In this document: one piece after another, positions 32,165 to 42,722 of the stretch
Layout of the letters: each line of letters starts with the position of its first letter
Numbering within the stretch: position 1 is the stretch's first letter
Assembly (NCBI GenBank): GCA_003246625.1
Contig: QJZR01000012.1
Coordinates: 558,001-622,000, forward strand
Direction: 5' to 3'
Origin: Alphaproteobacteria bacterium
GTDB lineage: Bacteria; Pseudomonadota; Alphaproteobacteria; Rhodospirillales; Rhodospirillaceae
Length of the DNA: 64,000 bases
Position numbers and translations under genes: made by a program
Notes under the pieces: generated by a model
Seen by the model: only the letters and a program-made list of their open reading frames with translations
What the model was told of the DNA's origin: nothing
Databases searched by the model: none

Positions 32165-35100
32165 TCAAACGCCGAAGTACTTCGCCTGCGGATGATGCAG
32201 GACGATCGCCGAGGTGGACTGTTCCGGCTCCAGCTGGAACTCGTCGGACAGGACGATGCCGATGCGCTCCGCCTTGAGCAGGGACAGAATCTGCGCCTGA
32301 TCCTCCAGGTTCGGACAGGCCGGATAGCCGAAGGAATAGCGCGATCCGCGATACCCCTGGTTCAGCATCCGTTCGATGTCGCGATCGTCCTCCGCCGCGA
32401 AACCCAGCTCGGCGCGGATGCGCTTGTGGGTATGCTCGGCCAGGGCCTCGGCCAGTTCCACCGACGCGCCGTGCAGGTACAGATAGTCCTGGTAGCGGTC
32501 GGCGGCGAACCAGTCGCGCGCCACCGCCGAGGCCCGCGCCCCCATGGTCACCGCCTGCAGGCCGATGACGTCGCGTTCGCCGCTGGCCGCGTCGCGGAAG
32601 AAGTCGGCGATGCACAGGCCGCCCTCGCCGCTCTGCCGCGGAAAGGCGAAGCGCGCCACCTCCTTTTCGCCGTCGTCGGGATCGAACAGGACCACCGCGT
32701 CGCCCTCCGCCGCGCACGGCCAATAGCCATAGACCGCCTGCGGTTTCAGGATGTCCTCCGCCTCGCAGCGGGCGAGAAGGTCATGGAAGACCGGGCGGAT
32801 TTCCTTCGCCGCGAAGGCCTTCCATTCGTCCAGGCTGCGCCCCTGCTTCTTGTAACCCCACTGGAACTGATAGAGCATGCGTTCGTTGACGAAGGGAATC
32901 AGCGCCTTCACCGCCACGTCCTCGACCAGACGCGGCCCCCAGAACGGCGGGGTCGGCACCGGCGCGTCCTTGGCCAGTTCGGCGCGGCGCAGGGCCAGCG
33001 CGGCATAGTCGACGGGGCGTTCCGCCGGGCGCTTGGCGCGGCCGAGTTCGCGTCCCTGGTGGCTGGGCTTGCCGGCGCGCTTTTCCTGTTGCGCGGCAAG
33101 GTAGGCGTCGAAGCTGCCGTCCGCCACCTTGGCCATCAGGTCCAGGCCGTCGAAGGCGTCGCGCGCATAGGCGACGCGGCCGCAGGTTTCGTAGGCGGCG
33201 ACGCAATCCTCCTCGACGAACTTGCGGGTCAGGGCCGCGCCGCCCAGGATCACCGGCGTGGTCAGGCCACGGCGCGCCATCTCCACCAGGTTGTCGCGCA
33301 TGATCACCGTCGACTTCACCAGCAGGCCGGACAGGCCGATGACGTCGGCCCGGTGTTCCTCCGCCGCCTTCAGGATGTCCTCGACCGGCTGCTTGATCCC
33401 CAGGTTGACCACCTTGTAGCCGTTGTTGGTGAGGATGATGTCCACCAGGTTCTTGCCGATGTCGTGGACGTCGCCCTTCACCGTGGCCAGCACCATCACG
33501 CCCTTGTGCGTGCCCCCGGCCTTTTCCATGAAGGGCTCCAGAAAGGCGACCGCCGCCTTCATCGTCTCCGCCGATTGCAGGACGAAGGGCAACTGCATCC
33601 GGCCCGAGCCGAACAGTTCGCCCACCGTCTTCATCCCGTCGAGCAGCAGGGTGTTGATGATTTCCAGCGGCGAATGGCTTTGCATCGCCGTCTCCAGGTC
33701 CGCGTCCAGGCCGACGCGGTTGCCGTCGACGATGCGGCGCTTCAGCCGTTCCTCCACCGTCGCCGGTTCGGCCTGGACCTCGGCAACGGCATCGCCCTTG
33801 CCCTCGAACAGGGAGATCAGCGCCTGCAAGGGATCGTAGCCCTCGCTCCGCCGGTCGAGAATCAGGTCCTCCGCCGCCTTCGCCTCCGCCTCCGGAATGG
33901 CGTGCAACGGCATGATCTTCGACACGTGCAGGATCGCGCCGGTCATCCCCGCCTTCGCCGCAAGGTCGAGGAACACCGAATTCAGCACATGGCGCGCGGC
34001 GGGTTTCAGACCGAAGGAGACGTTGGACAGCCCCAGCACCACCTGGCAGTCCGGCATTTCGGCGCGGATCCGGCGGATCGCCTCCAGGGTCTCCAGCGCC
34101 AGGCGCCGGTCGTCCGGATTGCCGGTGCAGACGGTGAAGGTCAGGGGATCGAACATCAAATCCGACGGCGGCAGACCGTGACGCACGCAGGCGAACTCGT
34201 AAAGCCGCTTGGCGATCGCCAGCTTGCCGTCGGCATCCTTGGCCATGCCGACCTCGTCGATGGTCAGCGCCACCACCGCCGCGCCGTACTTGCGGGCGAG
34301 AGCCAGACGCTGGGCGGCTTCTTCCTCGCCGTCCTCGAAGTTGATCGAGTTGATGATCGCCTTGCCGCCGTAAAGCTTCAGCGCCGCCTCGATCACCTTG
34401 GTGTCGGTGGAATCGACGACCAGCGGCGCGTCGACGGAACCGCGCAGGCGGGTCATCACCTCGGTCATGTCGGACATCTCGTCGCGGCCGACGAACGCGG
34501 CGCAGACGTCGAGCGCGTGCGAGCCCTCGCGCATCTGTTCGCGCGCCATGCCGACGATGCCGTCCCAGTTCTCGGTTTCCTGGAACTCGCGGAACTTCTT
34601 CGAGCCGTTGGCGTTGCAGCGTTCGCCGATGGAGAACACCGCGTTCTCCTGGCGCAACGGCACCTGGCCGTACAGCGAGGCGACGGCGGGCACCCAGTGC
34701 ACCGACCGCTTCACCGGCAGGGGACGGTCCTTGCCGCCGCCCAGACGGCGCAGCATGGCGTCCACCGCCTGGGTATGCTCGGGCCGCGTGCCGCAGCAGC
34801 CGCCGACCATGTTCACCCCGTCCTCAAGGACGAAGCGTTCGTGCCAGGAGGCCAGCTCCGCCGGGGTCAGCGGATAATGGGTCTTGCCGTCGACCAGTTC
34901 GGGCAGTCCGGCGTTGGGCTGCACCGAGATCAGCCCCGGCCAGTTCTCGGCCAGCCATTCGATGTGCTTCGCCATTTCCGCCGGACCGGTGGCGCAGTTC
35001 ATCCCGAACGAATCCACCCCCAAGGCATGGATGGCGGTGGCGGCGGCGGCCAGGTCGGAGCCGACCAGCAGGGTGCCGGTGGTCTCCACCGTCACCTGCA

Positions 35101-35659
35101 CCAGGATCGGCAAGGTCTTGCCCGCGGCGGCCATCGCCGCCTTGGCGCCGTTCACCGCGGCCTTGATCTGCAAGGGGTCCTGACAGGTTTCGACCAGGAA
35201 GGCGTCGGCGCCGCCCGCAATCAGACCGGCGCACTGCACCGTGTAGGATTCCTCCAGCGCATCGTAGGAGACATGCCCCAGGCTGGGCAGCTTGGTCCCC
35301 GGCCCCACCCCGCCCAGGACGAAACGCTGCCGCGAATCGGCAAAGCCCTCGGCCGCCTCGCGGGCGATTTCCACGGCGCGCCGGTTGATCTCGAAGGCGC
35401 GGTCGGCCAGGTCGAATTCCGCCAGGGTGATCGGCGAACCGCCGAAGGTGTTGCTCTCGACGCAGTCCGCCCCCGCCGCGAAATAGCGTTCGTGGATGCC
35501 GCGAACGATGTCCGGGCGGGCCAGCACCAGCGCCTCGGTACAATTCTCCCGTCCCAGGAAGTCGCGTTCCACGGACAGGTCGAGGGCCTGCACCAGGCTG
35601 CCCATGCCGCCGTCGCACAGCAGCACACGGTCGGAAATGGCGGTCAGAAAATCACGCAT
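32165..35659 (-). CDS. metH: Cobalamin-dependent methionine synthase MetH
   Basis: Transfers a methyl group from methyltetrahydrofolate to homocysteine through cobalamin. It has 1164 residues, full length with all four modules: homocysteine domain with zinc ligands (NCATGP and GGCCGTRPEH), pterin domain (about 350-620, FSIGERCNANGSKKF), cobalamin cap and domain with DVHDIGKN (H732 is the lower cobalt ligand), and a C-terminal SAM reactivation domain (SFGYPACPNLEDQ). The start at 35659 was chosen as the family N-terminus; the frame is open further upstream. It follows metF in the operon after a 79-base gap with a hairpin. Confidence 0.97.
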   Translation of the reverse strand: MRDFLTAISDRVLLCDGGMGSLVQALDLSVERDFLGRENCTEALVLARPDIVRGIHERYFAAGADCVESNTFGGSPITLAEFDLADRAFEINRRAVEIAREAAEGFADSRQRFVLGGVGPGTKLPSLGHVSYDALEESYTVQCAGLIAGGADAFLVETCQDPLQIKAAVNGAKAAMAAAGKTLPILVQVTVETTGTLLVGSDLAAAATAIHALGVDSFGMNCATGPAEMAKHIEWLAENWPGLISVQPNAGLPELVDGKTHYPLTPAELASWHERFVLEDGVNMVGGCCGTRPEHTQAVDAMLRRLGGGKDRPLPVKRSVHWVPAVASLYGQVPLRQENAVFSIGERCNANGSKKFREFQETENWDGIVGMAREQMREGSHALDVCAAFVGRDEMSDMTEVMTRLRGSVDAPLVVDSTDTKVIEAALKLYGGKAIINSINFEDGEEEAAQRLALARKYGAAVVALTIDEVGMAKDADGKLAIAKRLYEFACVRHGLPPSDLMFDPLTFTVCTGNPDDRRLALETLEAIRRIRAEMPDCQVVLGLSNVSFGLKPAARHVLNSVFLDLAAKAGMTGAILHVSKIMPLHAIPEAEAKAAEDLILDRRSEGYDPLQALISLFEGKGDAVAEVQAEPATVEERLKRRIVDGNRVGLDADLETAMQSHSPLEIINTLLLDGMKTVGELFGSGRMQLPFVLQSAETMKAAVAFLEPFMEKAGGTHKGVMVLATVKGDVHDIGKNLVDIILTNNGYKVVNLGIKQPVEDILKAAEEHRADVIGLSGLLVKSTVIMRDNLVEMARRGLTTPVILGGAALTRKFVEEDCVAAYETCGRVAYARDAFDGLDLMAKVADGSFDAYLAAQQEKRAGKPSHQGRELGRAKRPAERPVDYAALALRRAELAKDAPVPTPPFWGPRLVEDVAVKALIPFVNERMLYQFQWGYKKQGRSLDEWKAFAAKEIRPVFHDLLARCEAEDILKPQAVYGYWPCAAEGDAVVLFDPDDGEKEVARFAFPRQSGEGGLCIADFFRDAASGERDVIGLQAVTMGARASAVARDWFAADRYQDYLYLHGASVELAEALAEHTHKRIRAELGFAAEDDRDIERMLNQGYRGSRYSFGYPACPNLEDQAQILSLLKAERIGIVLSDEFQLEPEQSTSAIVLHHPQAKYFGV

Positions 35660-35694
35660 CGGCCTACTTTCAAGCAGTGTTCGAGCAAAAGCGG

Positions 35695-35727
35695 CGCCGT
35701 CCCGCCTCTTGCCGGGCGGGATCGGCG
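35695..35727 (-). terminator. Hairpin between metF and metH (attenuator-like)
   Basis: On the minus strand the stem cgccg-a-tcccgcc pairs with ggcgggacggcg, with a 1-base bulge and an 8-base loop, followed by cgcttttgc. It lies in the 79-base gap before metH. It could be a weak terminator or RNA-stability element that lowers metH relative to metF. Confidence 0.45.
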
Positions 35728-35738
35728 CGAACCTCACG

Positions 35739-36659
35739 TCACGCGCGCGGGCGCACCCCCAGCAGATGACAGATGGCGAAGGTCAGATCGGCGCGGTTGA
35801 GGGTATAGAAATGGAAGTCCCGGATACCGTCCTCGGTCAGCGCCTGAACCATTTCATAGGCCGTGGTGGCGGCGACCATGCGGCGGGTTTCCGGGTCGTC
35901 GTCCAACCCGTCGAAGGCACGGTGCATCCACGCGGGCACGGTGGCGCCGCAAGCGGCGGAGAACTTCACCACCTGGGCGAAGTTGGTCACCGGCAGGATG
36001 CCCGGCACCACCGGAATGAAGATGCCCGCCGCGGCGATGTCGTCGCGGAAACGGCGAAACAGGTCGACGTCGAAGAAATACTGGGAAATCGCCCGCGTCG
36101 CCCCGGCGTCGATCTTGCGCTTCAGGTTGTCGATGTCGGCGGCGCGCGACGGCGACTGCGGATGCCCCTCGGGATAGGCGGCGACGGAAACCTCGAAATC
36201 GGCGATGCGCTTCAGCCCCGCCACCAGGTCCGAGGCATAGGCATAGCCGCCGGGATGCGGCACATAGGTCCCCTGCCCGTCCGGCGGATCGCCGCGCAGG
36301 GCGACGACGTGGCGGATGCCCGCGTCCCAATAGGCGCGGGCCACCGCGTCGATCTCGTCCGTCGTCGCGGCGACGCAGGTCAGGTGGGCGGCGGGCCGCA
36401 TCGCGGTTTCGCGGGCGATGCGCACCACGGTTTCGTGGGTGCGTTCGCGGGTCGAGCCGCCCGCGCCGTAGGTGACGGAAACGAACTCGGGGGCCAACGG
36501 CTCCAGACGCTTCACCGCCTCCCACAGGGATTCGGCCATCTTTTCCGTCTTCGGCGGAAAGAATTCGAAGGAAACCCGCACCGGATGCAGCGCCGCGCTG
36601 GCGATCGGCAACCCGCGCGCGGGCAGGTCGCCCCGATTTTCCGTATCCTTGCCGTTCAT
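35739..36659 (-). CDS. metF: 5,10-methylenetetrahydrofolate reductase MetF
   Basis: FAD enzyme producing 5-methyltetrahydrofolate, the methyl donor for MetH. It has 306 residues. Typical stretches are SFEFFPPKTEKM near the N-terminus, VTYGAGGSTR, LRGDPP and AISQYFFD. The start overlaps the stop of the ArsR-methyltransferase gene by four bases (36656-36659), and GGAAGGA is upstream, so the regulator, metF and metH form one operon. Confidence 0.96.
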   Translation of the reverse strand: MNGKDTENRGDLPARGLPIASAALHPVRVSFEFFPPKTEKMAESLWEAVKRLEPLAPEFVSVTYGAGGSTRERTHETVVRIARETAMRPAAHLTCVAATTDEIDAVARAYWDAGIRHVVALRGDPPDGQGTYVPHPGGYAYASDLVAGLKRIADFEVSVAAYPEGHPQSPSRAADIDNLKRKIDAGATRAISQYFFDVDLFRRFRDDIAAAGIFIPVVPGILPVTNFAQVVKFSAACGATVPAWMHRAFDGLDDDPETRRMVAATTAYEMVQALTEDGIRDFHFYTLNRADLTFAICHLLGVRPRA

Positions 36660-37603
36660 TCCTTGCTTCCTTCCGTTGCAGGTTTCCGCGCCACCCAGAT
36701 ACCGACGCTCAGCGGGTCCCCCGGCAGATGCTGTTCCGCGACGGGCGTCAGACCCGCCCCGGCGAACCAACGCGCGACCTCGGCCGGGGGGAAACCGAGA
36801 CGCAGATGATTGTGCCGATCGCGCAGTTCGTCCAGCGCGTGCGGCAGATAGTCGACGATCACCACCCGGCCGCCGGGACCCGCGGCGCGCGCCGCCTCGC
36901 GCACCGCCTGGGCGGGACGCGCGGCATAATGCAGGACCTGATGGAACATCACCACGTCGAAGCCCGCGGCGTCGCCCGGCAGATGCTCCATGTCGCCGTG
37001 CCGTACCCGGCAATGACGCAGCCCGGCGCGCGCCAGGTTTTCCCGCGCCACCGCCAGCATTTCCAGCGACAGATCGATGCCCTCGGCACGGGAAACCGAA
37101 CCGCCCAGCACGTTCAGCATGTGGCCGGTGCCGGTGCCGACGTCAAGCAGACTGTCCACCCGCCGGTCCAGCACCAGGTCGCGAATCGCCGCGTCCACCA
37201 CCGACTCGTCGGCCTGCAACCCGCGCAGCCGGTCCCAGTCCGCCGCCACCGTGGCGAAATAGGCATGCGCCCGCGCCGATTTCTCGGCGGCCAGGCGGCG
37301 CAGGCGTTCGCGGTCGGCGGCCAGCGCCGGATCGCTGTCGGCAAGGGCGGCCAGCGCCGCCTCGATCAGGCCGATCGTCGGACTCTGCCGCGCCAGACGG
37401 TAGAAAACGAAGCTGCCTTCGCGGAAGCGTTCCAGCACCCCGCCCTCGACCAAAAGCTTAAGGTGGCGGGACACCCCGGGCTGGCTGACCCCCAAAAGCT
37501 CGGTCAGTTCGCCGACGCTGAGGTCGCCCTCGGCGCACAGACGCGCCAAACGCAGGCGAGTCGGTTCGGCCAGGGCTCTCAGACAGGTCAGGGCGGCGTG
37601 CAC
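36656..37603 (-). CDS. ArsR-family regulator fused to a SAM-dependent methyltransferase
   Basis: 315 residues from a GTG start. Residues about 1-80 form an ArsR-type winged helix (LRALAEPTRLRLARLC ... LGVSQPGVSRHLKLLVEGG). Residues about 100-300 are a class I methyltransferase with motif I DVGTGTGHMLNVL and the later DVVMFHQVLHYAA. No arsenic or metal-binding cysteine pair is seen. Being first gene of the metF-metH operon, with a palindrome just upstream, it is probably an autoregulator that senses SAM or SAH through the methyltransferase-like domain (inference). Whether it still methylates anything is open. Confidence 0.88.
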   Translation of the reverse strand: MHAALTCLRALAEPTRLRLARLCAEGDLSVGELTELLGVSQPGVSRHLKLLVEGGVLERFREGSFVFYRLARQSPTIGLIEAALAALADSDPALAADRERLRRLAAEKSARAHAYFATVAADWDRLRGLQADESVVDAAIRDLVLDRRVDSLLDVGTGTGHMLNVLGGSVSRAEGIDLSLEMLAVARENLARAGLRHCRVRHGDMEHLPGDAAGFDVVMFHQVLHYAARPAQAVREAARAAGPGGRVVIVDYLPHALDELRDRHNHLRLGFPPAEVARWFAGAGLTPVAEQHLPGDPLSVGIWVARKPATEGSKE

Positions 37604-37860
37604 GAAGGAACCTCTTCGATGTTTCCTCTCGAATATATAAACGGATGTTTATATGTCAATACGAGATAATGTGATGGCCGTCACAGCCCTGCCCGCGACT
37701 GTTCGATTTTTGCCACAGGGAACGGGAAACCGCTGACCCGACAGGAGAATATTTCTGGAAAAGAACCCCGGGCAATGGTATCTCAAAAATGCATCCGGAC
37801 GGCTCGCCCGGGTGTCTTCGTCGTTTGCCGCAGGCTCCGCTGAAATCAAGAGAGACCGCC
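37604..37860. promoter_or_regulatory. Divergent intergenic region between ArsR-metF-metH operon and mlaA
   Basis: 257 bases. The region near the regulator gene (37625-37680) is A+T-rich and holds the 20-base inverted repeat. The mlaA side ends with an aagagaga ribosome binding site. I saw no SAM-I, SAM-II or SAH riboswitch features. Confidence 0.5.
37635..37654. promoter_or_regulatory. Perfect inverted repeat, likely ArsR-type operator
   Basis: ATATAAACGGATGTTTATAT: two perfect 8-base arms with a 4-base spacer, 31 bases upstream of the GTG start of the ArsR-methyltransferase gene. Size, A+T-rich arms and position fit a dimeric winged-helix repressor controlling its own operon. Confidence 0.75.
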
Positions 37861-38655
37861 ATGCCCGGGATAATTCCCTCGTCGATCCGCAGTGTTCTCC
37901 GCCGCACCGCTCTGTGCGCGTTCTGCGCCCTGTCGCTGGCGGCAACCCCCGCCCTAGCCGACGTCGACGAAGCCAACGATCCGGCCGAGCCCTTCAACCG
38001 GGCGATGTTCGATTTCAACATGGCGCTGGACCGGGCGCTCCTGGCGCCGGTGTCGCGCGGTTATCGCGACTACACCCCCGACCCGCTGCAGACCGGCATC
38101 CATAACGCCCTGGTCAACCTGCGTTCGCCGATCGACCTGTTGAACACCCTGCTGCAGGGCGACTTCGCCCGCGCCGGCATCGTGATCAAGCGGTTCGTCG
38201 TCAACTCCACCGCGGGTATCGGCGGGTTGATCGACGTCGCCGCCGAAACCGGCGACGAGCGTCAGAAGGAAGATTTCGGCCAGACCCTGGCGGTGTGGGG
38301 CGTGGACGGCAACCCCTATGTGGTGTGGCCGCTGCTGGGCCCCTCCAACCCGCGCGACAGCATCGGCGCGGTCGCCGATCTGGTCAGCGACCCCCTGTTC
38401 TGGCTGGGCATGAACTCGGATTGGGACGCCGCCGAGCCCCTGATGTGGACCCGTTTCGGCATGACCGTGATCGACAACCGCGTGCCGCTTCTCGACCCGC
38501 TGGAAGAGCTGGAACGTACCTCGGTCGATTTCTACGTCGCGGTGCGCGATTTCGTCCGCCAGCAGCGGATGCTCGAGATCATGAACCGCAAGTCCTCCGA
38601 CCGCCCGAGCGAAGGCGAAGGCTACCGCTTCAGCTTCTCGCCGCAGCAGTCGTAG
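37861..38655 (+). CDS. mlaA: Phospholipid-transport protein MlaA (VacJ), apparently non-lipidated
   Basis: Outer-membrane component that removes misplaced phospholipids from the outer leaflet. It has 264 residues. Family stretches DPAEPFNRAMFDFN, SRGYRDYTPD and GQTLAVWGVDGNPYVVWPLLGPSN are clear. The N-terminus is a signal peptide ending ATPALA/D with no lipobox cysteine, unlike E. coli MlaA, which is a lipoprotein. ATG 37861 was chosen for the signal peptide and nearby ribosome binding site; the frame is open from 37789. mlaC follows after 31 bases; mlaDEF are not in the window. Confidence 0.92.
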   Translation: MPGIIPSSIRSVLRRTALCAFCALSLAATPALADVDEANDPAEPFNRAMFDFNMALDRALLAPVSRGYRDYTPDPLQTGIHNALVNLRSPIDLLNTLLQGDFARAGIVIKRFVVNSTAGIGGLIDVAAETGDERQKEDFGQTLAVWGVDGNPYVVWPLLGPSNPRDSIGAVADLVSDPLFWLGMNSDWDAAEPLMWTRFGMTVIDNRVPLLDPLEELERTSVDFYVAVRDFVRQQRMLEIMNRKSSDRPSEGEGYRFSFSPQQS

Positions 38656-38686
38656 GCCCCACGTGTCGTTCTGCGGAGCCTTCCCG

Positions 38687-39346
38687 ATGTTTAATCCGAT
38701 CCACCGCGCCGCGAATGCGGCGCGGGGCCTTTTCTGCGCCGTCGTCCTGCTGTTCGCCGCCACCGGCAACGCCCTTGCGGCCGACACCGCCAACGCGACG
38801 CGGTTCATTACCGACCTGGTCGACCGGGCGGTCAACGACGTGATCGGCGCCGACCTCTCCAACGCGGAAAAGGAAGAAAGCTTCCGCCGCATGTTCGTCG
38901 AGGCCGCCGACATTCCCGGCATCGCCGGTTTCGTCATCGGCCGCGAATGGCGGACCGCCTCGCCGGAAAAGAAGGCCGCCTTCATCGACCTGTTCGAGGA
39001 CGTCTCCATCCTCACCTGGATTTCCCACCTGGACGAATACCGGGGGATCAAGATCGAGGTCACCGGCGCCTACGCCGACAAGAACGACGTCTTCGTGGAA
39101 AGCCGGGTCGGCCCCAAGGACGGCCAGCCGGTGGCGATCGTCTGGCGGGTGCAGGAACGCGACGGCGGCGTCCTCAAGCTGATCGACGTGGTGATCGAGG
39201 CCAACTCGATGCTGATCAACACCCGCAAGCAGTATGCCTCGGTGATGAAACGCGACGGCGGCCTGGACGGCCTGATGGCCAGCCTGTCCAAGATGCGCGA
39301 CGACCTGCGCGCCGGCAAGAAACCCACCGCCCAGGCGCAGCAGTAG
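38687..39346 (+). CDS. mlaC: Periplasmic phospholipid carrier MlaC
   Basis: Soluble lipid shuttle between MlaA at the outer membrane and the inner-membrane Mla ABC complex. It has 219 residues. A signal peptide ends NALA/ADT (about residues 1-32). The MlaC/Ttg2D fold is suggested by RRMFVEAADIPGIAGFVIGR and WRVQERDGGVLKLIDVVIE. The start has GGAG about nine bases upstream; a GTG at 38663 is less likely. It probably forms an operon with mlaA. A repeat element and strong terminator follow. Confidence 0.9.
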   Translation: MFNPIHRAANAARGLFCAVVLLFAATGNALAADTANATRFITDLVDRAVNDVIGADLSNAEKEESFRRMFVEAADIPGIAGFVIGREWRTASPEKKAAFIDLFEDVSILTWISHLDEYRGIKIEVTGAYADKNDVFVESRVGPKDGQPVAIVWRVQERDGGVLKLIDVVIEANSMLINTRKQYASVMKRDGGLDGLMASLSKMRDDLRAGKKPTAQAQQ

Positions 39347-39519: not shown

Positions 39520-41202
39520 CTACCCCCGCGTCAGGGGCTTGAACTTCAGCCGGTGCGGCTGGTCGGCGTCGGCGCCCAGGCGGCGGTGCTTGTCTTCCTC
39601 GTAGTCCTGGAAGTTGCCCTCGAACCACTCGACGTGGCTGTCGCCCTCGAAGGCGAGGATGTGGGTGGCCAGACGGTCGAGGAACCAGCGGTCGTGGCTG
39701 ATCACCACGGCGCAGCCGGGGAAGTCGGCCAGCGAGTTTTCCAGGGCGCGCAGGGTTTCCACGTCGAGGTCGTTGGTCGGTTCGTCGAGCAGCAGCACGT
39801 TGACGCCGGACTTCAGCATCTTCGCCAGATGGACGCGGTTGCGTTCGCCGCCGGAAAGCTGGCCGACCTTCTTCTGCTGGTCGGGGCCCTTGAAGTTGAA
39901 CTGGCCGACATAGGCGCGGGACGGCATCTTGCGGCTGCCCAGGTTGACCTCCGCCTCGCCGTCGGAGATTTCCTCCCACACCGTCTTGTCGGCGCGCAAC
40001 GCGTCGCGCGACTGGTCGACATAGCCCAGCTTCACCGTGTCGCCGACGCGGAAGGTTCCGGCATCCGGCGTTTCCTGGCCGGTGATCAGACGGAACAGGG
40101 TGGATTTGCCCGCGCCGTTGGCGCCGATCACCCCGACGATGCCGCCGGGCGGCAGCTTGAAGGACAGGTTGTCGAAGAGCAGGCGATCGCCATAGCCCTT
40201 GGCCAGGTTTTCCGCCTCGATCACCAGGCCGCCCAGGCGGGGACCCGGCGGGATGACGATCTGCGCTTCGTCCGGTCCGCGTTTCGCGGCGCGTTCGACC
40301 AGTTCGTCGAAGGCGGCGATACGCGCCTTGGACTTCGCCTGACGCGCCTTCGGCGACTGGCGGATCCACTCCAGTTCCTCGCGGATGCTGCGCTGACGGG
40401 CGCTTTCCTCGCGCGCTTCCTGTTCCAGGCGTTTCTGCTTCTGCTCCAACCACGAGGAATAGTTGCCCTCGTAGGGGATGCCCTGGCCACGGTCGAGTTC
40501 GAGAATCCAGCCGGTGACGTTGTCGAGGAAATAGCGGTCGTGGGTGACCACCACCACGGTGCCCGCGTACTCGCGCAGGTGCTGTTCCAGCCACTGCACC
40601 GATTCCGCGTCCAGATGGTTGGTCGGTTCGTCGAGCAGCAGCAGGTCGGGCTTGGACAGCAGCAGGCGGCACAGCGCGACGCGGCGGCGTTCGCCGCCGG
40701 AGAGGACGGAGACCTCGGCGTCGCCGGGCGGGCAGCGCAGGGCATCCATGGCGATTTCCACGGTGCGTTGCAGATCCCAGCCGTTGGCGGCGTCGATCTT
40801 TTCCTGCAGTTCCCCCTGTTCGGCGATCAGGTCGTTCATCTCGTCGTCGGAAAGTTCCTCGGCGAAACGGGCGGAAACCGCCTCGAAGCGGTCCAGAAGG
40901 CTCTTCACCTCGCCGACGCCGTCCATCACGTTGCCCAGCACGTCCTTCTTCGGGTCGAGATGCGGCTCCTGCTCCAGATAGCCGATTTTGGCGCCCTCGG
41001 CGGCCCAGGCCTCGCCGTTGAACTCGGTATCCAGCCCGGCCATGATCTTCAACAGGGTCGACTTGCCCGCGCCGTTCGGGCCCAAAACGCCGATCTTGGC
41101 GCCGGGCAGGAAAGACAGCCACAGCCCCTTCAGGATCTCCTTCCCGCCGGGATAGATCTTGGAAAGCTGCTTCATCACGTAGATGTACTGATAGGCGGCC
41201 AT
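39520..41202 (-). CDS. ettA: Energy-dependent translational throttle protein EttA (ABC-F)
   Basis: Ribosome-associated ABC-F ATPase that gates entry into elongation according to the energy state. It has 560 residues and starts [15 protein letters not shown], typical for EttA. Two nucleotide-binding domains are seen: Walker [10 protein letters not shown] and GANGAGKST, signatures [11 protein letters not shown] and [12 protein letters not shown], Walker [12 protein letters not shown] and [12 protein letters not shown] charged helical linker lies between them (about 245-320). There are no membrane segments. The start has CGGAG eight bases upstream; the frame is open beyond it to 41298. Confidence 0.96.
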
Positions 41203-41284
41203 TGACGACTCCGCTGGATGTTCCGGTGGCGCAGACTCTACGGACCCGCGCGGCGAAAGCAACCCCCTATTCGCCGGGGGCGCC

Positions 41285-41313
41285 TTGTCGCGCGGCAAGT
41301 TCCGGCCTACCCT
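41285..41313 (+). promoter_or_regulatory. Possible promoter for cbbM
   Basis: ttgtcg, 17-base spacer, taccct. The -35 is good and the -10 is poor (three of six consensus bases), as is common in GC-rich alphaproteobacteria. It lies 39 bases before the cbbM start, in the 149-base divergent region with ettA. Confidence 0.35.
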
Positions 41314-41351: not shown

Positions 41352-42722
41352 ATGGACCAGTCGAACCGCTACGCCGACCTGACGCTTGCCGAGGACCGCC
41401 TGATCGCGGGCGGGCGCCATGTCCTGTGCGCCTATGCGATGCGACCGAAGGAGGGGGACTACCTGGCGGCGGCGGCGCATTTCGCCGCCGAGTCCTCCAC
41501 CGGCACCAATGTCGAGGTCTGCACCACCGACGACTTCACCCGGGGCGTCGACGCCCTGGTTTACGAGATCGACCCGGCGCGCGAACTGACGAAGATCGCC
41601 TTCCCGGTGGAGCTGTTCGACCGCAACCTGATCGACGGCAAGGCGATGGCCGCCTCGTTCCTCACCCTCACCGTGGGCAACAACCAGGGAATGGGCGACA
41701 TCGCGTACGCCAAGTTGCTGGATTTCCACGTGCCGCCGGATTTCCTGAGGCTGTTCGACGGCCCGGCGGCGAACATCGCCGACTTCTGGCGGGTGCTGGG
41801 CCGCCCGCGAGCCAACGGCGGCATGGTGGTCGGCACCATCGTCAAGCCGAAGCTGGGGTTGCGGCCACGCCCCTTCGCCGACGCCTGCCACGACTTCTGG
41901 CTGGGCGGCGACTTCGTCAAGAACGACGAACCGCAGGGCAACCAGGTCTTCGCCCCGCTGAAGGAAACCATGCGCGCGGTGGCCGACGCGATGGCCCGCG
42001 CCCAGGACGAAACCGGCGAGGCGAAGCTGTTCTCGGCCAACGTCACCGCCGACGACCCGGCGGAGATCATGGCGCGCGCCGACGCGATTCTCGAGATTTT
42101 CGGCGCGAACGCCTCTCACGTCGCCTTCCTGGTCGACGGCTACGTCGCCGGGCCGACGGCGGTGGCCTGCGTGCGCCGCAACTATCCGGGACAGTTCCTG
42201 CATTATCACCGCGCCGGACACGGGGCGGTGACCTCGCCGCAGTCGAAGCGCGGCTACACCGCGCTGGTGCTGGCGAAACTGGCGCGCCTGCTGGGCGCCT
42301 CGGGCCTGCACGTCGGCGCCATGGGCTACGGCAAGATGGAGGGCTACCCCGCCGACCGCGCCATCGCCGACATGCTGACCGCCGACGATGCCCAAGGAAG
42401 CCACTTCCGTCAGCCCTGGTGTGGCATGAAATCCACCACGCCCATCATTTCGGGTGGCATGAACGCCTTGCGTTTGCCCGGACTTTTCGCCAACTTGGGG
42501 CACGCGGACGTGATCCAGACCTGCGGCGGCGGCGTGTTCGGCCACCTCGACGGTCCGGCGGCGGGGGCCCGCTCGATCCGTCAGGCGGTGGACGCCTGGC
42601 GCGCGGGCGCCGACCTGCCGTCCTACGCCAGGGATCATGCCGAACTGGCCCGCGCCTTCGCGTCCTTTCCGCAGGACGCGGACGCGCTCTATCCCGGCTG
42701 GCGCGCCATTCTCGGCGGCTGA
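41352..42722 (+). CDS. cbbM: Form II ribulose-bisphosphate carboxylase CbbM
   Basis: Fixes CO2 onto ribulose 1,5-bisphosphate. It has 456 residues and is very like the Rhodospirillum rubrum form II enzyme from the first residues ([10 protein letters not shown]) on. Active-site residues are intact: K165 in [10 protein letters not shown]190 (carbamylated) with D and E in [16 protein letters not shown], loop-6 K328 in GYGKMEG, and [16 protein letters not shown]. It is thus a true carboxylase, not a RuBisCO-like protein. ATG 41352 has GGAG ten bases upstream; upstream in-frame codons are not conserved. It is followed after 29 bases by phosphoribulokinase. Confidence 0.97.

Follow-up and report, generated by a model that had tools for sequence, protein, structure and literature searches.

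Which protein reads the inverted repeat that precedes the methionine genes at this locus, and to which metabolite does it answer? The window, by which we mean the whole 64-kb stretch of DNA that was analyzed, carries a gene for an ArsR-type protein with a methyltransferase domain, followed by metF and metH. We consider it highly probable, largely by analogy, that this protein is a SahR orthologue that would bind the repeat, repress its own sahR-metF-metH operon and be released by SAH. The features on which the argument draws are as follows.

32165..35737, minus strand: metH, B12-dependent methionine synthase, start approximate (TIGR02082, 1255.6 bits vs a cut-off of 1010.85)
35739..36659, minus strand: metF, methylenetetrahydrofolate reductase (MTHFR), from a domain search; 4-base overlap with sahR
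36656..37603, minus strand: sahR, ArsR HTH plus class I SAM-dependent methyltransferase, 315 aa, GTG start (ORF, domain searches and model)
36857..37147, minus strand: methyltransferase domain, residues 153-249, with the putative SAH/SAM pocket (Pfam Methyltransf_11, 3e-21)
37475..37477, minus strand: codon for Gly43, close to the N-terminal end of the presumed recognition helix (model helix 41-53)
37632..37637, minus strand: -10 hexamer TATATT, 5/6 consensus, sharing 3 bases with the operator
37635..37654, no strand assigned: putative SahR-type operator ATATAAACGGATGTTTATAT, from its sequence and the motif shared by orthologues
37654..37659, minus strand: -35 hexamer TTGACA, 6/6 consensus, abutting the operator
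37861-38655, plus strand: mlaA, divergent from sahR
38663-39346, plus strand: mlaC, divergent from sahR
39520-41298: ABC-F-like ATPase, just beyond mlaA and mlaC
41352-42722, plus strand: RuBisCO large subunit, both Pfam domains

The operator stretch also lies upstream of mlaA and mlaC, an outer-membrane lipid-transport pair. Farther along, what looks by eye like a phosphoribulokinase-like gene begins on the plus strand at about 42752, after the RuBisCO gene, so that Calvin-cycle genes stand near the met operon.

The regulator and its relatives

Domain searches confirm what the sequence-only reading had recognized, namely an ArsR DNA-binding domain (HTH_5, 38.4 bits vs 22; HTH_20, 43.2 vs 27; NF033788, 74.2 vs 55) joined to a SAM-dependent methyltransferase fold. 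The MTHFR and methionine synthase domains of the two genes placed in an operon with the regulator are likewise confirmed, the gene order is sahR-metF-metH, and sahR (36656-37603) and metF (35739-36659) overlap by four bases as had been stated. The three genes are presumably co-transcribed.

A structure model of the regulator (pLDDT 91.8) contains a helix at residues 41-53, which, from homologous ArsR proteins, we take to be the recognition helix. The methyltransferase domain of the model resembles 1vl5 (Z 24.1 over 174 residues, 1.6 Å) and 5gm1, a structure with SAH (Z 22.2 over 184 residues, 3.2 Å), in a list that covers mainly residues 113-309 and so barely probes the HTH part. A search by sequence found no solved structure of the full fusion, each listed match spanning one domain only. 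The top-ranked full-length Foldseek matches to the model are methyltransferases, at an rmsd of about 15-20, and these presumably carry an N-terminal winged-helix domain.

Full-length orthologues are present in 117 of the 150 genomes of the order, our own included; the other 33 gave only weak matches. Outside its own genome the protein is 40-66% identical to its full-length relatives, and a class-wide draw yielded a match at E 1e-40 in 119 of 240 genomes. From 313 orthologue loci we obtained 289 distinct proteins, two loci being unparsed (L324, L345) and 22 repeat proteins being removed; L085, with only 46 bp upstream, was dropped from the residue, operator-position and shuffle tests. Among 80 named sahR loci, the best 80 of 586, metF lies downstream on the same strand in 77, at an estimated gap of -72 to 206 bases. 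Two of the remaining three have metH, and one is too short to tell. The scan that produced these 80 used SQP[RG]VSRHL as one of its two patterns, and the set is therefore unfair to other residues at position 43.

All 289 distinct orthologues share D154, G156, T157, D177 and M182. We take these to be the SAM/SAH motif residues of class I methyltransferases. The earlier proposal that SAM or SAH acts through the methyltransferase domain thus gains a putative pocket that is kept throughout the family, and the protein is probably a SAM/SAH-sensing methionine regulator.

Such a regulator has been described. SahR is an SAH-responsive protein of α- and δ-proteobacteria with a 20-bp palindrome, whose core targets (targets regulated in over 70% of the SahR-bearing genomes) include sahR, ahcY, metH, metF and metK; in 2014 its regulon was assigned to seven of nine Rhodospirillales genomes (excerpts of PMC4239095). 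The regulator in the window resembles SahR in its ArsR HTH, its place in its own operon with metF and metH, its 20-bp AT-rich inverted-repeat operator, and its orthologues across Rhodospirillales and in Rhizobiales, the fused, metF-adjacent rhizobial genes among them. As to the core targets metF, metH and sahR, the likeness consists in the gene order here and in the metF genes downstream of 77 of the 80 named loci. Motif, targets and protein sequence together make the regulator a probable SahR orthologue.

The sequence-only reading had treated the fused architecture as a departure from SahR. This is not supported, as fused, metF-adjacent orthologues occur in both rhizobia examined. In Sinorhizobium meliloti the orthologous gene spans 1023 bp, encodes an ArsR-methyltransferase fusion with both domains and stands directly before metF; the protein is 47% identical to that of the window over 311 aligned positions, and the motif lies 16 bp before the ATG. 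The sahR gene of Ensifer aridi is listed with the same length, 1023 bp (PMC8877191, in part). Because the S. meliloti orthologue is fused and adjoins metF, the fusion is an ordinary form in rhizobia. The ArsR-methyltransferase fusion is therefore not new, its supposed novelty is removed, and a sensing mode differing from that of SahR is unsupported. This sequence comparison is with the S. meliloti protein; SahR of Desulfovibrio is likened by description only.

Both rhizobial regions have the order ettA-sahR-metF, which recalls the ABC-F-like ATPase beyond mlaA and mlaC in the window. One of them, L397 (CP090106.1, S. meliloti, 3.72 Mb), is labelled "plasmid pSymB", and the label may be wrong; a size of 3.72 Mb would, we assume, fit a chromosome.

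Another precedent suggests a different function. ArsR-M of Brevundimonas sp. M20 is likewise an ArsR-methyltransferase fusion heading a metF/metH operon, with the similar gene order arsRM-metF-HMT-metH; it binds its own promoter in EMSA, and the palindrome there contains the half-site CTTTATAT (PMC10190100, in part). In contrast to SahR, it is described as an arsenite methyltransferase, a bifunctional regulator that methylates As(III) and links arsenic to methionine metabolism. The reported support is an in vitro methyltransferase assay with As(III) and an As(III) MIC that was raised by expression in E. coli (PMC10190100, in part). By this analogy, which rests on the published description, the methyltransferase domain would be enzymatic, either in addition to sensing or in its place. 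However, the conserved set of cysteines expected for As(III) is lacking. C7, C23 and C198 are the only cysteines of the window protein, and no column is a universal cysteine across the 289 orthologues, the best being C198 (226/289), then C23 (206/289). As(III) methylation is thus unlikely as a function shared by the family. Arsenite methyltransferase models listed for the regulator score far below cut-off (for example, PRK11873, 51.8 bits vs 263). No ars gene is found among the identified window neighbours (metF, metH, mlaA, mlaC, the ABC-F-like ATPase and RuBisCO) or among the annotated neighbours in the two rhizobial regions. We regard an arsenic-methylating role for the window protein as very improbable and retain its assignment to SahR.

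The ArsR-M/met operon of Brevundimonas sp. M20 itself looks like a SahR operon, and the case for arsenite there merits re-examination with SAH; SahR goes unmentioned in the main text of that paper (PMC10190100). Three names, SahR, the annotation "metalloregulator ArsR/SmtB" and the arsenite-linked ArsR-M, are thereby tied to what is apparently one family.

The putative operator and its promoter

The putative operator consists of 8-base arms, ATATAAAC and GTTTATAT, around a central GGAT (an 8-4-8 inverted repeat), and exactly 31 bases separate it, as first described, from the GTG start at 37603 that follows it. The description as a perfect 20-base palindrome must be rejected: the reverse complement of ATATAAACGGATGTTTATAT is ATATAAACATCCGTTTATAT, which agrees in the arms and differs at the GGAT center, so that 8 of 10 dyad pairs match.

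Within the window, the only match to the operator with three or fewer mismatches is the operator itself, and 0 of 100 shuffles yielded any. The exact core, ATAAACNNNNGTTTAT, is found once in the 2.69-Mb genome (reversed-pattern control, 0). An 8+4+8 pattern with three or fewer mismatches also has a single match in the whole genome, a count that proves little alone because the reversed-pattern control gave one too. No further operator site was found in this genome by scans with the exact core, the 8+4+8 pattern, and the canonical and genus patterns; apart from the 8+4+8 scan, the reversed controls of these scans were all empty. The window contains eight perfect 8+4+8 inverted repeats, of which the other seven are G+C-rich. 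As a bare structure the putative operator is unremarkable; judged from sequence, its significance comes from the 20-bp motif upstream of orthologues.

That motif is found upstream of 276 of the 289 distinct orthologues. The prediction that the repeat is an operator for the regulator's own metF/metH operon is therefore upheld as far as conservation goes, and the palindrome is present, not absent, upstream of orthologous operons. The motif was accepted with three or fewer mismatches over two 7-base arms at the best place in about 345 bp, and by the same criterion a recognizable site is absent upstream of 13 orthologues. Among dinucleotide-shuffled upstream regions, drawn from the 288 regions that were long enough, 49 of 1440 pass, so a few of the 276 sites may be due to chance. 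The distance from motif to start codon varies across the class.

On the gene's strand, the operator fills the spacer of a promoter, TTGACA-16-TATATT, that agrees with the sigma-70 consensus at 11 of 12 positions (shuffled regions have a mean of 0.1 such promoters). The 61-base AT-rich stretch that holds it has a G+C content of 31% vs 69% across the window. This setting would suit a site that does no more than contribute to the promoter, as an AT-rich UP or spacer element to which no regulator binds. However, the motif is found throughout the class, at differing distances from start codons and upstream of ahcY too, and the ahcY site is absent in the four genomes without sahR. Moreover, TTGAC abuts the operator in seven of seven genus members with the gene but, beyond the genus, in just 3 of 273 operators. 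A pure promoter element leaves the conservation of the motif unexplained; we give it the least probability of any reading considered here, close to none. Abutment by TTGAC as a general feature of these operators is rejected on the same 3 of 273.

Ligand and reach of the regulon

In the mechanism that we propose, the regulator presumably acts as a homodimer, whose ArsR winged helices would bind the 20-bp operator in the spacer between the -35 and -10 hexamers. The bound dimer would keep RNA polymerase off and repress sahR-metF-metH. On build-up, SAH would bind the methyltransferase-fold domain, which as a sensor could do without enzymatic activity, and the SAH-bound dimer would leave the DNA, allowing MetF and MetH to be made. 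These enzymes would turn homocysteine into methionine and so pull SAH hydrolysis forward. For the ligand, we infer SAH by analogy from the accounts of SahR in excerpts of PMC4239095 and PMC8877191. In E. aridi, expression of sahR is highest in a sahR deletion, from which its authors infer autoregulation (PMC8877191, in part).

The effector could instead be SAM, by a MetJ-like corepressor logic working through the same fold, as was proposed for SamR of Xanthomonadales. SamR, likened here by description, is a distant SahR homologue beside metH genes; it differs in having about 30% identity to SahR and a 24-bp motif (PMC4239095, in part). The pocket residues would presumably serve either ligand. 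In addition, ahcY appears to lie outside the regulon in the window's genus, which leaves methionine-synthesis genes as targets and comes near the argument made for SamR (PMC4239095, in part). However, that case rested on metK in the regulon, and orthologous SahR proteins are described as SAH-responsive (PMC4239095 and PMC8877191, in part). The sequence-only reading had looked to metK as a place where the palindrome might recur; no site was found within 400 bp at 12 metK loci from 11 genomes (12 of 14 copies, one of two being left out in both G039 and G024). A SAM-responsive regulator is thus unlikely in our estimate, and SAH is preferred.

The same expectation for ahcY held in part: many relatives have a site there, and in the three genus members G000, G115 and G143 none was found within 400 bp. 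In a non-random sample of 62 genomes (50 + 12), made up of best-scoring loci and chosen families, a site stands at ahcY in 36 of 58 sahR-bearing genomes vs 0 of 4 without full-length sahR. Three genomes (G017, G038 and G116) entered the sample because of their sahR, and one of the 36 sites is doubtful (G003, with 3 mismatches and weak symmetry). Genome-wide scans of five relatives with the canonical motif (three or fewer mismatches; reversed control, 0) found hardly anything beyond the sites at sahR and ahcY, with two sites per genome in G058, G149 and G039, and three in G016 and G120. The third SahR-like site, away from sahR and ahcY, is at G016:C1:2704891-2704910 and G120:C2:2629869-2629888. 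A riboswitch replacing the operator at ahcY or metK was also considered, and none scored at the gathering threshold in eight loci (L034, L036-L038, L050, L051, L053 and L002).

In contrast to SahR elsewhere, no site was found for the regulator of this genus at ahcY or at any place other than its own operon: the core target ahcY has none in the three members examined, and scans with the genus motif give one site per genome. As ahcY belongs to the regulon and is no feature of the protein, and as a core target is defined by regulation in more than 70% of genomes (PMC4239095, in part), loss of ahcY from the regulon in one lineage is compatible with membership in the SahR family.

Within the ahcY sample, absence of the ahcY site coincides with changes in both operator and protein. 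Operators lacking G at position 8 occur only where ahcY has no site (9/22 vs 0/36; Fisher 4.7e-5), and so do proteins with a residue other than Arg43 (7/22 vs 0/36; Fisher 5.7e-4); both tests ignore relatedness, and the window genus supplies three of the nine operators and three of the seven proteins.

Residue 43 and the operator of the genus

A match to sahR at E 1e-40 is present in seven of eight genus genomes; none was found in G388, which is 84% complete. Four further genus members lie outside the 289-orthologue set. The match in one genus member, L394 (G387), is listed with one in-frame TGA.

The genus departs from SahR in its Gly43, in an operator core of AT(C/T)C for ATAT, and in an operator that abuts the -35 box. 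Residue 43 is Gly in seven of seven genus members with the gene, and Arg in 276 of the 289 orthologues. The genus operator has the form TTGACATATNNACATYCGTKTATAT in seven of seven, with one departing copy (G143, where position 8 is T in place of C and the last base is C). Its core is ATYC vs a near-invariant ATAT elsewhere: of the 273 non-genus operators, 266 have A at position 11 and 271 have T at position 12, where the genus has C/T and C. A search of the seven genomes with the genus motif finds one site each, whereas the canonical pattern finds zero sites in G115 and G143, both of which have the diverged form as their single site. As read from sequence, then, the genus has one recognizable site per genome, with a changed operator and recognition helix. 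This operator deviates from the consensus of the family where the latter is near-invariant, and so canonical SahR behaviour is an assumption here.

Across the family, residue and operator vary together to some extent. At least one half of the operator has G at position 8 in 3 of 9 non-Arg43 orthologues with a site vs 243 of 267 with Arg43 (Fisher 6.8e-5, plain counts), and column 43 ranks first of 282 columns for association with a missing position-8 G. Without the window genus, its rank is 6 (p 0.014). Among orthologues with at least 200 bp upstream, the site is unrecognizable in 4 of 13 non-Arg vs 8 of 275 Arg proteins. Six loci outside this pattern of Arg43, namely L130 (G011), L283 (G252), L285 (G272), L323 (G177), L343 (G378) and L380 (G185), have A, S, Q, G, L or S in place of that arginine, and their operators lack the position-8 G or are hard to recognize. 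There are counterexamples: 24 Arg43 operators have no G, and three Gly43 operators keep it (L120, L123 and L293). The tree has only about 9 changes at residue 43, and independent pairs on supported branches number only two or three, mostly in the expected direction and too few for significance. Residue 39 is Gln in 276 of 289 orthologues and L or I in several members of the window's family f1 (for example, L108, L105, L113 and L030); these keep canonical operators, so residue 39 alone cannot explain the operator change.

It is conceivable, though we hold it somewhat doubtful, that SahR of this genus has a private DNA code in which R43G (with Q39 to V, S or G) and the operator changed together after contraction of the regulon. 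On the operator side, the AAAG half-site would be gone, the core would have passed from ATAT to AT(C/T)C, the right half would be mostly GTGTATAT, and the operator would have come to abut the -35 box; this part is offered just as tentatively. Since phylogeny-aware counts lack significance and the rank of column 43 falls, coevolution after regulon contraction is only a lead, and the link that we infer between repressor-operator change and regulon shrinkage lacks significance when relatedness is taken into account. Earlier work had already recorded taxon-specific substitutions within the motifs of SahR (PMC5343134, in part). No link of such substitutions to a helix residue or to regulon loss was found in the excerpts of the SahR literature consulted (PMC4239095, PMC8877191, PMC10190100, PMC5343134 and PMC7950407).

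If this possibility is true, Arg43 would read the G of the canonical half-site ATATAAAG. The repressor and operator of the genus would then be orthogonal to canonical SahR/operator pairs, a case of natural repressor-operator coevolution released by regulon contraction. The helix residue and the operator core separate the genus from nearly all of the 286 other orthologues, and the genus may thus offer a natural test of joint change in a repressor and its operator.
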